This document shows positions 21,326-41,081 of a stretch of DNA of 64,000 nt, piece after piece. The DNA is from Pseudactinotalea suaedae (GTDB taxonomy: Bacteria > Actinomycetota > Actinomycetes > Actinomycetales > Beutenbergiaceae). Positions within the stretch are counted from its first letter, which is position 1. Each line of letters starts with the position of its first letter. Both the position numbers and the translations under genes were made by a program. Below the pieces are notes generated by a model, which worked only from the letters and a program-made list of their open reading frames with translations, did no database searches and was not told the DNA's origin. The stretch spans positions 372,001 to 436,000 of the forward strand of contig NZ_WNXY01000001.1 of the NCBI RefSeq assembly GCF_009733815.1, in the 5' to 3' direction.

Positions 21326-22264
21326 TCAGCGGCGCCCGGCAGGCTGGGTGATGTCGTCCAGGGCGTCACGGATCTCGTCGGGCAGGTCCAGGTCGGCCGC
21401 AGCCAGCGCGCCGCGCAGCTGAGCGGGCGTACGAGCGCCGACGACGACGCTGCTCACCACGGGCGCGTCGCGCGCCCAGGCCAGGGCGACCTCGACCGGT
21501 GCCCGGCTGAGCCCGTCGGCTGCGGTCGCGAGCGCCTCGACGACGCTGCGGGCGTACGCCGTCAGGTACGGCTCGACGAAGCCACGCAGGTGCGGTGAGG
21601 CGGCACGGGAGTCGGCCGGGACCGAGTGCCGGTACTTGGCCGACAGCACGCCACGCCCGAGCGGCGACCAGCCGACGACACCGACCCCGAGGGCCTGCGC
21701 CGCGTCCATGAGCTCCACCTCGGCCGAGCGGTTGAGCAGGGAGTACTCGGTCTGCGCGCACGCCAGGCCGACGCCGTGCTCGAGCAGCGTGGCGACCTGG
21801 GCCACCTGCCAGGCGGCGTGGTTGGCGAGCCCGACGTAGCGGACCTTGCCGGAGGACACGGCGTGCGCGAGCGTGTCCGCGACCTCGGGCACCGGGGTGC
21901 CGGGGTCAGGTGCCTGCACGAGCCACACGTCGAGGTGATCGGTGCCGAGCCGCCGCAGCGTCTCCTCCAGCGAGCTGAGCAGCGCTCGCCGCGAGGCGTC
22001 GAGCCGCCCGTCGACGACCCCCGACCGGGCCGAGAGCACCACGTCGTCGCGGTGGACCTCGTTCTGCAGCAGCCCGCCGATGATGTCGAGCGCACCGCCG
22101 TCGGAGTAGGTGGCGGCGGTGTCCACCAGCGAGCCGCCGGCGTCGAGGAAGATCCTCAGCTGCTCGGCCGCCTCGTGCTCGTCAGTGTCGCGGCCCCAGG
22201 TCATCGTGCCCAGCCCCACTGCCGACACGCGCAACCCCGTGCGACCCAACCGCCTCAGCTCCAT
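21326..22264 (-). CDS. Aldo/keto reductase family protein with altered catalytic residues
   Basis: 312 residues, (beta/alpha)8 fold: [90 protein letters not shown] and an NADPH-binding C-terminal [17 protein letters not shown]. The usual tetrad is Asp-Tyr-Lys-His. Asp and Tyr are kept (DTAATY), but the Lys position reads Arg (LSARSG) and the His position reads Gln ([10 protein letters not shown]). It may work on unusual substrates, be a weak enzyme, or act as a sensor. It is divergent from uppP with overlapping regulatory space. Confidence 0.85.
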
Positions 22265-22289
22265 GGCGATCAGGTTAGTGTTGCCGCCC

Positions 22290-23135
22290 GTGTCCTTCTT
22301 CGACGCGGTGATCCTCGGCCTGATCCAGGGCCTCACGGAATTCCTGCCCATCTCCTCGAGCGCGCACCTGCGGATCGTCGGTGAGCTGCTCGGTGCCGAC
22401 CCCGGTGCCTCGTTCAGCGCGATCACCCAGATCGGCACCGAGGCAGCGGTGGTGCTGTACTTCCGCCGCGACATCGCCCGCATCATCAGCCACTGGGTCA
22501 AGTCGCTGCCGGTCGGCCCCTGGGCCAAGCAGGTGCCCTCCACCGATCCCGACGCCCGCATGGGGTGGTACGTCATCGTCGGCTCGATCCCGATCGTGGT
22601 GCTGGGGCTGCTGTTCCAGGACCAGATCGAGCACGCGCTGCGCAACCTGTGGATCACGGCGGCCGTGCTGGCCGGCTTCGCGCTGATCCTGGGCTGGGCG
22701 GACAGGGTCGGCGCCAAGACCAAGACGCTGACCGAGCTCACCTGGCGGGACGGCATCCTGTTCGGGCTCGCGCAGGCGCTCGCGCTGATCCCCGGCGTGT
22801 CGCGCTCCGGTGGCACGATCACCGCCGGGCTGCTGCTCGGGTACACGCGGGAGGCGGCGGCCCGCTACTCGTTCCTGCTCGCCGTCCCCGCGGTACTGGG
22901 CTCGGGGTTCTACCAGCTGTTCAAGAGCGGCTTCAGCGGCGGTGAGGCCGGGCTGCCGGCGACCGTGATCGCCACCCTCGTCGCGTTCGGGGTGGGGTAC
23001 GTCGTCATCATCGCGTTCCTCAAGATCGTCTCGACCTACTCCTACAAGGGGTTCGTCTGGTACCGGGTCGGGCTGGCCGCGCTGGTCGTCGTGCTGCTGC
23101 TCACCGGTGTGCTGCAGGCGATGCCGCCCGCCTAG
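22290..23135 (+). CDS. uppP: Undecaprenyl-diphosphatase UppP (BacA)
   Basis: 281 residues, multi-span membrane protein that dephosphorylates undecaprenyl diphosphate to recycle the lipid carrier for cell-wall synthesis. Both signature regions are present: [16 protein letters not shown] near the N-terminus and [18 protein letters not shown] in the middle, with the catalytic Glu, His and Arg. GTG 22290 is placed by TAGTGT eight bases upstream (leaderless). An ATG at 22263 would add nine residues and is less likely. Homologues can confer bacitracin tolerance. Confidence 0.93.
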
Positions 23136-36732: not shown

Positions 36733-37356
36733 TCAGAACGCGGCGGTGAAGCTGCCGATCGCGGCGTCCGAACCGAGGAGCTCGACGTCGGCGGCGCGCC
36801 GGCGGCCCGAGGCCACCAGCGCGAGCTCCACGGGGCTGCCGACGACCGCGACCGAGTCCTCGGCGCGCTTGACCACGCGCCGCCGCCCACCCGGGACCGC
36901 CAGCACCACGCCGACGCCCAGGCCACGCATCGTCATCCGGGCCATCTGCGCGACGGCGTCGAACAGCGTGTCGCTGTGCTCGGCCGGCAGCGTGCGCGCC
37001 GGGACCGGCCCGGCGCCGCGGCGGACGTCCTCGTGGTGGACCACGTACTCGACCGTGTTCGTCAGCCGGCCCATCGGGCCGTCCATCAGTGCCATCGGGC
37101 TCAGCCGCGCGACCGGCGAGGCGAACCGCTCGACCAGCGCCTGGTAGGCGCTGCGGTCCCTCGCCTGCTCGCTCAGCTCGGCGAACACGCTGCCCTCGTC
37201 CTCGTTGAACGTGCGCCACGGCTGGTGCCGCCGCAGGTACAGGTGGACGAGCAGGTGCCGGACCTCCCAGCCCTCGCACAGCGTCGGCGCGAGGGCATCC
37301 GCCCCCCGCAGCGTCGCCTCGAGGTGCTGCCGCTCGACCAGGTCCCATCGCGTCAT
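36733..37356 (-). CDS. TIGR03085 metal-binding protein (mycothiol-dependent maleylpyruvate isomerase/DinB-like)
   Basis: 207 residues. The helical bundle has LCEGWEVRHLLVHLYLRRHQ and TVEYVVHHEDVRRG, with the His positions that bind a metal in the DinB/MDMPI fold. Actinobacterial members are thought to use mycothiol, which fits mshC in the same window. Substrate unknown. The leaderless ATG lies six bases after TAGGGT on the minus strand, superposed on the -10 of the divergent ABC exporter. Convergent with hisF (10 bases). Confidence 0.85.
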   Translation of the reverse strand: MTRWDLVERQHLEATLRGADALAPTLCEGWEVRHLLVHLYLRRHQPWRTFNEDEGSVFAELSEQARDRSAYQALVERFASPVARLSPMALMDGPMGRLTNTVEYVVHHEDVRRGAGPVPARTLPAEHSDTLFDAVAQMARMTMRGLGVGVVLAVPGGRRRVVKRAEDSVAVVGSPVELALVASGRRRAADVELLGSDAAIGSFTAAF

Positions 37357-37362
37357 GCCGCC

Positions 37363-37372
37363 ACCCTAGGAT
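37363..37372. promoter_or_regulatory. Bidirectional promoter with overlapping -10 boxes
   Basis: ACCCTAGGAT reads TAGGAT on the plus strand (8 bases before GTG 37381) and TAGGGT on the minus strand (6 bases before ATG 37356). The two -10 boxes share the TA at 37367-37368. Both messages would be leaderless. Confidence 0.6.
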
Positions 37373-37380
37373 GGATCGTC

Positions 37381-39168
37381 GTGTATGCCCTCCCCGGTGG
37401 CGCCGTCCGCCGCTCGCTGCTGCTGATCGGCAGGGGTATCCGATCCCAGCCGAAGACCTTCGCCCTCGCGATCGGGGCCAGCGCGCTCTGGGGGCTGGCG
37501 TTCGTGGCCGTCGGCTGGCTGCTGGGGCGGCTGACCGACGACGTCGTGGTGCCGGCACTGACCGGTGAGGAGCTCGGCACCAGCAGGATCGTGGGAGCCG
37601 GTCTCGTGCTGCTGGGCCTCGCGGTCACCACCGCCGTGACGGTCGCCGGGAGGCGGATCTGGGCCGGCATCGGCGCGGTCGACGTGCAGGCGGGTCACCG
37701 CCGCCTCGTCACGCGCCAGTACCTGCGGCTGCCGATGTCCTGGCACCGCTCCCACCCGACCGGTCAGCTGCTCTCCAACGCGAACTCCGACGCCGAGAGC
37801 GCCGGCTACGTCTTCATGCCGCTGCCGTTCGCGCTCGGGGTCATCGTCATGGTGATCGGCGCGACGGCGGCGATGTTCGCCTCCGACGTGGTGCTCGGCT
37901 TCATCGGGCTGACGGTGCTGCCGCTCGTGCTGGCCGTCAACGCCGTCTACCGACGGTGGATGACGCCGGCGATCACCCAGGTGCAGGCCGAGCGCGCGGA
38001 GGTCTCGGACGTCGCGCACGAGAGCTTCGAGGCAGCCACCATCGTCAAGTCCCTCGGCACCGAGCAGATCGAGGAGGACCGCTTCACCGAGGTGACGCAC
38101 CGGTTGCGGGAGGCGAACGTCCGTGTCGGAAGGATCCGGTCGGTGTTCGACCCGGTGATCGACCTGATGCCCGCGCTGGCCACGCTCGCCGTGCTCGTGG
38201 TCGGCGTGCACCGGGTCTCCTCGGGCGACGCGCTCACCGGTGACGTGATCACCGCCTCCTACCTGCTGACGATCCTCACCTTCCCGGTGCGCGCGATCGG
38301 GTTCGTGCTCGGCGACCTGCCGCGCTCGCTGGTGGGCCACGACCGCATCTCCCGCGTGATCGATGCGCGCGGCTACCTCGAGCCGGGCGACGTCGACCTG
38401 AGCGGTACCGGTGGGCTGCACCTGGAGACCGAGCACGTCCGGCTCGAGGTCGGCCGGGGTGCCGAGGCCCGGCTGCTGCTCCAGGACGTCAGCCTGGTCG
38501 TGCCGCCCGGTGGCACCCTCGCCGTGGTCGGCTCGACCGGTGCGGGCAAGTCCACCCTCGTGGACGTGCTGCTGCGCATGACCGACGCCACCGAGGGGGT
38601 GGTCCGCTACGACGGTGTCGACGTGCGCGCGCTCTCGGAGGCCTCGCGCACCGCGGCGGCCGCCCTGGTGGCGCAGACGGCGTTCGTGTTCGAGGACACC
38701 GTCCGCTCCAACATCACCCTCGCCGACCCCGGCGCCAGCCCCATCACCGACGAGCAGGTCTGGGAGGCGCTGCGGCTGGCGCGCGCCGACGCCTTCATCC
38801 GCGAGCTGCCGGGCGGGCTGGACGAGGTCCTGGGGGAGCGCGGCACCTCGCTGTCGGGAGGCCAGCGGCAGCGGATCGCGATCGCCCGCGCCCTGGTGCG
38901 GCAGCCGCGGCTGCTCGTGCTCGACGACGCCACCTCCGCCGTCGACCCCCAGGTCGAGCAGGCGATCCTGGCGAACCTGCGTGAGCAGGCGTGCACGGTC
39001 GTCGTCATCGCCTACCGCAACGCGACCATCGCGCTCGCCGACCGGGTGCTGCACCTGGAGGCCGGCCGCGTCGTCGACGTGGGCACGCACGCCGAGCTGC
39101 TCGCCCGCGACCCCGGCTACGCCGAGATCGTCACCGCCTACGCACGCGACCGGGAGCAGAGGGCATGA
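37381..39168 (+). CDS. ABC exporter half-transporter, degenerate ATPase site
   Basis: 595 residues: six-helix membrane domain (about 1-320) then an ATPase domain. Walker A is VVGSTGAGKSTL and the signature LSGGQRQRIAIARAL is perfect. The Walker B catalytic Glu is Asp (LLVLDDATSAVD) and the switch His is Tyr (VVIAYRNAT). Such changes mark the degenerate half of heterodimeric exporters like TM287/288. Its stop overlaps the next half-transporter in ATGA, so the pair forms one exporter. Substrate unknown. It lies between hisF and hisI, but transport of a histidine intermediate has no support. Confidence 0.92.
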   Translation: MYALPGGAVRRSLLLIGRGIRSQPKTFALAIGASALWGLAFVAVGWLLGRLTDDVVVPALTGEELGTSRIVGAGLVLLGLAVTTAVTVAGRRIWAGIGAVDVQAGHRRLVTRQYLRLPMSWHRSHPTGQLLSNANSDAESAGYVFMPLPFALGVIVMVIGATAAMFASDVVLGFIGLTVLPLVLAVNAVYRRWMTPAITQVQAERAEVSDVAHESFEAATIVKSLGTEQIEEDRFTEVTHRLREANVRVGRIRSVFDPVIDLMPALATLAVLVVGVHRVSSGDALTGDVITASYLLTILTFPVRAIGFVLGDLPRSLVGHDRISRVIDARGYLEPGDVDLSGTGGLHLETEHVRLEVGRGAEARLLLQDVSLVVPPGGTLAVVGSTGAGKSTLVDVLLRMTDATEGVVRYDGVDVRALSEASRTAAAALVAQTAFVFEDTVRSNITLADPGASPITDEQVWEALRLARADAFIRELPGGLDEVLGERGTSLSGGQRQRIAIARALVRQPRLLVLDDATSAVDPQVEQAILANLREQACTVVVIAYRNATIALADRVLHLEAGRVVDVGTHAELLARDPGYAEIVTAYARDREQRA

Positions 39169-41081
39169 GCGCACCAGGGAGTGAGGACCGGAGCGGAGCG
39201 AGGACCGGAGCGAGCGTCGGTGCGCGACCGGCGGGACAGAGCGCACCAGGGAGTGAGGACCGGAGCGGAGCGAGGACCGGAGCGAGCGTGAGTGCGCGAC
39301 CGGCTGGACAGAGCACACGCATCGAGGCCACGTCCGACCTCGGGGTGTTCGGCACGCTCCGCGAGGGGCTGCGGCTGTCGCCGGCGATCACCCGCGGCAT
39401 CGGCATCACCCTCCTGCTGGCGGTCGTGGCCACGGTCGGCAGGCTCGTGGTGCCGTTCACGGTCCAGCAGGCCACCGACCGGGGCATCGTCGGCGACGCC
39501 GACCCGGACCTGGTGCTCCGGATGTGCGCGATCGCCGCGGGCGTGCTGCTGGTCACCGGCGTCGCGACCTCGTGGGTGAACGTGCGGCTGTTCACGGCCA
39601 CGGAGGCCGGGCTCGCGCAGCTGCGCATCCGCGCGTTCCGGCACGTCCACGACCTCTCGGTGCTCACGCAGAACACCGAGCGGCGCGGGTCGCTGGTCTC
39701 GCGCGTGACCAGCGACGTCGACACCATCTCGATGTTCGTGCAGTGGGGCGGGATCATGCTGATCCTGTCGATGCTGCAGATCCTCGGCGCCACCATCGCG
39801 ATGCTGTTCTACTCCTGGCAGCTCACGCTCGTCGTGTGGCTGGTGTTCCTGCCGATGCTGGTGCTGGCCCCCCGCGGGCAACGGCTCCTCAACGGTGCCT
39901 ACGGGCAGGTCCGCGCGCGTGTCGGCGGGATGCTCGCGGCGATCTCGGAGGCGGTCGTGGGCGCCCAGACCATCCGCGCCTACGGCTCCGGAGCCCGGGT
40001 GCTGGGACGCATCCACCAGGCGATCACCGCGCACCGGGACGCGGCCGTCAAGGCGCAGGTGTACTCCTCGCTGGCGTTCTCCACCGGCACCCTGCTCTCC
40101 GGCGTCGCGCTCGCCGCCGTGGTCACGCTCGGCACGATGCTGGGGCTGGCCGGCCAGATCACCGTCGGCGGGCTGCTGGCGTTCCTGTTCCTGGTCCAGA
40201 TCTTCACCGGGCCGGTGCAGTCGGCCACCGAGGTCCTCAACGAGATGCAGAACGCGGTCGCCGGCTGGCGCCGGGTCATCTCGGTGGTGCACACGCCGAT
40301 CGACGTCGAGGACCCGGAGCGGCCCGTCGACCTCGGGCCGCGACACCCGGCGTCGATCTCGTTCTCGGGCGTCGGCTTCGCCTACCCGGACGGCCCGCCC
40401 GTGCTCCAGGACGTCGATCTCGAGATCCCCGCCGGCTCGCGGGTCGCGATCGTCGGCGAGACCGGGTCCGGCAAGACGACGCTGGCGCGGCTGGTCACCC
40501 GGTTCGCCGACCCGCAGCGCGGCACCGTCTGCATCGACGGCGTCGACCTGCGCGACGTCCGGCTCAGCGACCTGCGGGGGCGCGTCGTCGTCGTCCCGCA
40601 GGAGGGTTTCCTGTTCACCGGCACGGTCGCGGACAACGTCGGCTACGGACGCCGGCGGGCCTCGCGCGAGCGGATCGAGGAGGCGGTGGCCGAGCTCGGC
40701 CTGAGCGCCTGGGTGGCGAGCCTGCCGCAGGGGCTCGACACCGACGTCGGGCAGCGCGGCGAGTCGCTCTCGGCCGGCGAGCGCCAGCTGGTCGCGATCA
40801 TGCGTGCCTACCTGGCCGACGCGGACGTCCTCGTCCTCGACGAGGCGACCTCCGCCGTCGACCCGGCCACGGAGTCGCGCATCACCAGGGCGCTGGTCGG
40901 CCTGACCGCGGGACGCACCTCGATCGCGATCGCCCACCGGCTGTCAACAGCAGAGGCCGCCGACATGGTCGTCGTCGTGGACGCCGGCCGGGTCGTCGAG
41001 GTCGGTCCGCACGCCGAGCTGGTCGCGCAGGGCGGCCGGTACGCCCGCCTGCACGCCTCCTGGGTGGTCCAGAGTGGTTGA
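39165..41081 (+). CDS. ABC exporter half-transporter, catalytic partner
   Basis: 638 residues. The first 50 residues come from two in-frame copies of a 72-bp repeat and are polar. The membrane domain follows, then the ATPase with Walker [16 protein letters not shown], Walker [13 protein letters not shown] with the catalytic Glu, and H-loop IAIAHRLST. Its signature is altered ([12 protein letters not shown]), as expected when the partner supplies the good signature. ATG 39165 overlaps the upstream stop. An in-frame GTG 39288 in the second repeat, with GGAG before it, could be the older start. Confidence 0.92.
39169..39312 (+). repeat. Two tandem 72-bp repeats inside the exporter gene
   Basis: Units 39169-39240 and 39241-39312 differ at only a few bases (CGTCGGTGC against CGTGAGTGC; CGGCGGG against CGGCTGG). 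Each also holds GAGGACCGGAGCG twice. 72 is divisible by three, so the frame survives, adding [16 protein letters not shown]-type residues twice. Confidence 0.92.

Follow-up and report, generated by a model that had tools for sequence, protein, structure and literature searches.

How two divergent genes can both be transcribed when only 24 nucleotides separate their start codons is the question raised by the locus at positions 37,357-37,380 of the window, the whole 64-kb stretch of Pseudactinotalea suaedae DNA analysed here (GC 71-75%). The earlier note on this DNA had described two hexamers, TAGGAT on one strand and TAGGGT on the other, that overlap on a shared TA within this gap, and direct reading of the sequence confirmed the overlap, the shared TA and the length of the gap (Table 1). 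Hexamers at 6 and 8 nt from their respective start codons need 26 nt if they are not to overlap, so in a gap of 24 nt superposition follows. We compared the locus among three genomes of the genus, namely the source genome (G000), G001 and G002, and then among members of the family and wider relatives.

Table 1. Coordinates of the divergent genes, their intergenic region and a second superposed site, as positions in the window.
Feature	Position	Strand	Details
DinB/maleylpyruvate-isomerase-like gene (TIGR03085 family)	36733..37356	minus	207 aa; ATG start at 37356
Intergenic region	37357-37380		24 nt, GCCGCCACCCTAGGATGGATCGTC; read directly from sequence; flanked by CAT (37354-37356) and GTG (37381-37383)
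-10-like hexamer TAGGGT, for the DinB-like gene	37363..37368	minus (37368-37363)	6 nt before ATG
-10-like hexamer TAGGAT, for the ABC exporter	37367..37372	plus	8 nt before GTG
TA common to both hexamers	37367..37368	both	positions -12/-11 in each direction
ABC exporter subunit 1	37381..39168	plus	permease + ATPase (ABC_membrane + ABC_tran), 595 aa; GTG start
ABC exporter subunit 2	39165..41081	plus	likely ATG overlaps the TGA of subunit 1 (ATGA); start placed from this overlap
Aldo/keto reductase (PF00248)	21326-22264	minus	
Second superposed site	22262..22292		CAT-N7-AGGTTAGTGT-N8-GTG; between aldo/keto reductase and uppP
uppP (PF02673)	22290-23135	plus	

The two divergent genes were intact and coding-like, with GC3 values of 0.97 and 0.96, and both the DinB-like gene and the exporter gene look genuine. 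The minus-strand protein matched TIGR03085, a model of hypothetical proteins, above its cut-off (E 4.4e-42; 143.9 bits, cut-off 138.85), and also TIGR03083, the mycothiol-dependent maleylpyruvate isomerase domain (E 3.9e-22), while searches of Pfam and of the PDB with this protein returned no match at E 0.001. The label 'DinB-like' presumably fits the superfamily of the protein. We know of no tested function for TIGR03085, nor of any link between this family and export. In the PDB the exporter matched ABCB1- and MsbA-type transporters. Within the start of ABC subunit 2, at 39167-39318, a 72-base unit is repeated 2.1 times (95% matches); similar copies were found elsewhere in the genome (contigs C13 and C14) and in G002, and none in G001 at up to 3 mismatches. 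This unit looks like an interspersed repeat that is read in frame.

Leaderless starts with TANNNT are common in actinobacteria, according to the available portions of three studies (PMC3898074, PMC4895711, PMC3848588). In Mycobacterium tuberculosis, 73% of primary starts are reported to be preceded by a TANNNT centred at 7-12 bp, and no -35 is conserved (PMC3898074), and in Streptomyces coelicolor 21% of primary starts are reported as leaderless (PMC4895711). At our locus, no -35 stood out in either direction. The best TTGACA-type match was 3/6 each way in G000 and 2/6 in G002, and 3/6 or better was reached at 2448 of 5000 random positions; the best match to the Streptomyces-type NTGACC was 2/5 each way, and 4873 of 5000 random positions reached at least 2. 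In S. coelicolor a less conserved -35 (NTGACC) accompanies 58.6% of starts (PMC4895711), so its absence here is not the rule for all actinobacteria. The -35 positions of both directions would fall in the neighbouring coding DNA. The exporter GTG is some 2 nt further downstream than the optimal start, and a leader of no more than about 3 nt may therefore precede it in the mRNA. Nine nucleotides before this GTG is an AGGA (37368-37371), which could act as a weak Shine-Dalgarno sequence for the exporter if a longer transcript exists.

Comparison within the genus showed a conserved -10 at leaderless distance from each start codon in all three genomes. The exporter hexamer lies 8 nt before GTG throughout (TAGGAT in G000 and G002, TACGAT in G001), and the DinB-like hexamer is TAGGGT at 6 nt in G000 and TAGGCT at 7 nt in both G001 and G002. 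When the gaps of the three genus members were letter-shuffled, both motifs (4-10 nt allowed) appeared in 0.4% of cases. The TA is common to both hexamers in G000 (gap 24 nt) and G002 (gap 25 nt), whereas G001 has them apart (gap 51 nt); opposite-strand -10 elements that overlap, the mark of a bidirectional promoter, were thus found at 37367-37368 and also in G002.

In the family, the DinB-like gene was present at 25 loci in 23 of 24 genomes, two of these loci being weak second matches. The loci were inspected with 1.5-kb flanks, and some contigs end within them. A divergent exporter was found at 12 of the 25, nine of them outside the genus with gaps of ~135-545 nt, which are approximate values extrapolated from alignments. 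Several family members have a DinB-like hexamer that lacks the first T (CAGGCT and similar). Conservation of the spacing had been proposed in the earlier note as a check, and it held in part: hexamer-to-start spacings were kept in all three genus genomes, whereas the fused arrangement was found at only 2 of the 12 divergent family loci, with gaps from 51 to ~545 nt at the other 10. Among the wider relatives (the best 80 of 563, with 2.5-kb flanks, one of which, L026, was already in the genus sample), 21 of 80 had a divergent exporter, at gaps of ~51 to 1899 nt, and 50 of 80 had a TANNNT followed after 5-9 nt by a start codon close to the expected DinB-like start, compared with 9, 3, 2 and 1 of 80 for four control motifs at that start. 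Together, this comparative evidence supports the earlier proposal of two leaderless starts, both of them predicted, on a superposed -10 element.

The word ANNNTANNNT occurred twice in the 64-kb window against 9.16 copies expected from shuffles, and every one of 100 shuffles contained at least two. Each copy sits at leaderless distance from two divergent start codons and is flanked on either side by a coding-like ORF. The word may be scarce because -10-like sequences are avoided in coding DNA. CCTAGG alone was unremarkable in the window (3 copies, 4.7 expected).

We searched 464 kb of contig C11 (positions 1-360000 and 372001-476000, a sample that includes the window) for divergent pairs with gaps of 12-120 nt. 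This identified 14 pairs with TANNNT at 5-8 nt on both sides and coding-like ORFs, at gaps of 24-119 nt, and no such pairs in the same 464 kb with the control motifs TNNNAT and TTNNNA. Single candidate starts in this DNA numbered 106 for TANNNT versus 33 and 25 for these two controls. The two pairs in the window have the shortest gaps of the 14 and are the only ones below 42 nt. The DinB-like/exporter site is the compact extreme of a common divergent architecture that looks leaderless on both sides.

Superposed sites were sought with the pattern CATN5-8ANNNTANNNTN5-8RTG, in whose matches ATG-ATG sites are counted twice. It gave 24 matches in G000-G002 versus 9 for the reversed control and, by our own sums, at least 229 versus at least 112 in the 24 family genomes, where it exceeded the control in 22 genomes, equalled it in G014 and fell short of it in G023 (1 vs 8). 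Coding-like ORFs, taken as at least 80 aa with GC3 of at least 0.84, were present on both sides at 9 of 19 distinct superposed sites in G000-G002 (4/7, 2/4 and 3/8). A gene-caller count of 13/48 versus 3/48 is indicative only, as the caller takes the longest ORF and missed both the DinB-like gene and the aldo-keto start. The superposed class exceeds its control, but the background is high. The 18-bp class (TANNNTA between start codons) showed no excess in the three genus genomes, with 10 matches versus 15 for the control.

The second superposed site in the window lies in a gene pair that is widely retained. A uppP match was present in 23 of 24 family genomes, and at all 23 loci the uppP/aldo-keto pair was divergent and carried TANNNT at 6-8 nt on both sides; shuffled gaps of this pair contained both -10s in 0.05% of cases (4-10 nt allowed). 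Fused hexamers occur in G000 alone (gap 25); the remaining 22 genomes have them apart (gaps 33-58). A further divergent pair, DUF4229/PLDc_N, for which Pfam domains were checked in one locus and protein starts compared by eye in 14, is fused around AGCCTACGCT, 6-7 nt from each start, in 14 of 24 family genomes. These are all the sampled members of four genera (G004, G005, G010-G021; L148-L153, L166-L179). The same pair is separate in G000, G001 and G007 (gaps 120, 41 and 71), and in G002 it had no clear partner start. Across the order, the pattern gave 21 matches versus 11 for the control in 297 genomes; 14 of the 21 were DUF4229/PLDc_N in the family, and the other seven, among the 273 non-family genomes of the order, lay beside other genes or short ORFs.

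Two further superposed sites were observed. An HTH regulator/MFS transporter pair is superposed in all three genus genomes (L109, L122, L123), with an AT-rich gap that is identical in G000 and G002; its regulator matched HTH_20, and ArsR HTH_5 just over the cut-off (domains checked in G000 only). In G002 (L119, C8:211864-211893), a superposed site lies between proteins that by eye resemble a DinB/maleylpyruvate isomerase and an oxidoreductase.

We considered three other explanations for the arrangement at the DinB-like/exporter locus. It is unlikely that one gene alone uses the promoter while the other is read from a longer transcript starting inside its neighbour, the second hexamer being a chance match. 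AGGA could be the ribosome site of the exporter on such a transcript, but it is absent in G001, and every genus genome, the unfused G001 included, has a TANNNT at leaderless distance from both starts. The imperfect palindrome CCANCCTAGGATGG might instead be the operator of a regulator, with its likeness to a -10 secondary. Symmetry at 12 of its 14 positions and its retention in G000 and G002 favour this, as does the example of M. tuberculosis, where the available text of one study describes an inverted repeat that is central in the overlapping lysG/lysE promoters and is bound by LysG (PMC5648196). However, the symmetry follows from two facing TAGGNTGG stretches, the palindrome is missing from the G001 locus, and exact copies of it occur only at this site in G000 and G002 and nowhere in G001. 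Forward matches with at most one mismatch were fewer than for the reversed control (5 vs 14 and 7 vs 17, and 6 vs 10 in G001), and we regard an operator here as highly improbable. CCANCCTAGGNTGG was rejected as a candidate operator on its copy number, which did not go beyond control in the three genomes.

The third explanation is that the site works as a competitive switch, in which traffic one way shuts off the other, so that expression alternates between the DinB-like enzyme and the exporter. The earlier note had reasoned that two polymerases cannot occupy the site at once and that the genes must compete, perhaps as a simple switch between detoxification and export. The first step is sound in principle: the shared TA rules out simultaneous binding. 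The fused state is also kept in two species, and strong activation one way is reported to repress the opposite RNA, including at the acrA/acrR exporter-regulator pair (PMC12825309). Obligatory competition nevertheless finds no support in the available text of the same study, in which five of five tested E. coli bidirectional promoters were too weak basally for either direction to have a substantial effect on the other, although strengthening or activating one direction can repress the other (PMC12825309). The proposed switch also fits poorly with the comparative data: fusion is not kept with the gene pair, whose gap is 51 nt in G001 and ~135-545 nt at the nine non-genus loci, and among the best 80 of 563 wider relatives only 21 showed the exporter in divergent orientation. 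In addition, the -35s are no better than random, the pair includes no regulator gene, and the family of the DinB-like protein is not known to be linked to export. We therefore judge a switch to be very unlikely. Positions 37367-37368 belong to both hexamers, so that mutating them in a two-reporter construct, as had been suggested, would hit both promoters and cannot reveal competition.

Our preferred reading is that the 24 bases are, very probably, a minimal bidirectional promoter of housekeeping type for two leaderless genes, giving weak, largely independent expression and no switch. From the motifs, their spacings, their conservation and the existence of separate and fused forms, we infer the following scheme of starts, strength, occupancy and direction of change. 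RNA polymerase would bind in one of two orientations, in each of which the -11 base would be the A that the shared TA places on the non-template strand of that orientation. Binding would be mutually exclusive at any instant, and upstream polymerase contacts would fall inside the coding DNA of the opposite gene. Transcription is predicted to start at or within about 3 bases of the start codon, at A37356 for the DinB-like gene and at 37378-37381 for the exporter, which would place the opposite starts 22-25 bp apart; by our own derivation, a shared TA with optimal spacing gives starts 23 bp apart. Since the promoters look weak (poor -35s, no TGn), low and largely independent expression of both genes is likely, not a switch, and a measurable contest between the directions is not expected unless an activator is present. 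The fused form probably arose when a short gap that held a distinct leaderless -10 for each gene contracted until the TA was shared.

The published bidirectional promoters of Warman, Grainger and colleagues offer the closest comparison. In the available parts of these papers, bidirectional promoters are defined by opposite TSSs 7-25 bp apart (PMC10268837) and are found in all prokaryotes, with 18 bp as the commonest divergent TSS distance and 10 and 23 bp also common (PMC12825309). Judged from its sequence, the site described here is a predicted new member of this group, and the 23-bp class fits its geometry. It resembles the published promoters (PMC12825309, PMC10268837) in its superposed opposite -10s, its predicted distance between starts, its predicted divergent mRNAs and the expected steric exclusion. 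It differs in that both mRNAs are predicted to have almost no 5' UTR, which would make the whole intergenic region promoter, and in being of TANNNT type with no clear -35 in DNA of 71-75% GC, its starts being predicted from sequence.

Closely juxtaposed divergent promoters are called common in M. tuberculosis, and the pair Rv1130/Rv1129c described in the available text is alike in comprising divergent actinobacterial genes with TANNNT, both leaderless; this likeness covers the juxtaposition of the promoters (PMC3898074). The lysG/lysE pair of the same species is also divergent with an exporter, has overlapping -10/-35 motifs and produces a leaderless lysE transcript. It differs in the length of its intergenic region (108 bp), in having as one partner a LysR-type regulator whose binding site is an inverted repeat in that region, and in the source of the leaderless start, which belongs to a second lysE promoter and not to the one that overlaps (PMC5648196, as far as its available text goes). 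In leaderless TANNNT genes in general (PMC3898074, PMC4895711, PMC3848588, available portions), the hexamer likewise immediately precedes a start codon, and transcription begins at this codon or close to it, whereas here one element is shared in part by two such genes. Literature on leaderless genes combined with bidirectional, divergent or overlapping promoters, represented mostly by titles and the opening parts of abstracts, contained no description of this class, and a study of leaderless genes in Deinococcus-Thermus (PMC12340547) made no mention of divergent or bidirectional.

The interest of this locus is mainly that the same genome and its relatives carry separate and fused versions of several leaderless pairs. 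The proposed promoter would illustrate the small amount of DNA on which two bacterial genes may manage, with next to no leader, no -35 that can be recognised and a single shared melting step. Natural separate and fused forms of one gene pair in close relatives would also make the cost or benefit of sharing a -10 measurable with no need for designed variants. We tentatively suggest, as a possibility that we hold with less than even confidence, that double-leaderless divergent pairs form a large class in GC-rich actinobacteria, in which gaps contract to a floor of 22-25 nt as the -10s fuse on one TA. Such fusion would have been repeated, at din/ABC, at uppP/aldo-keto reductase and perhaps at DUF4229/PLDc_N, where its direction is unsettled, and a fused form could be shared by several genera. 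If this is true, leaderless pairs would have the 23-bp arrangement as their end point, and not the 18-bp one most frequent in E. coli.
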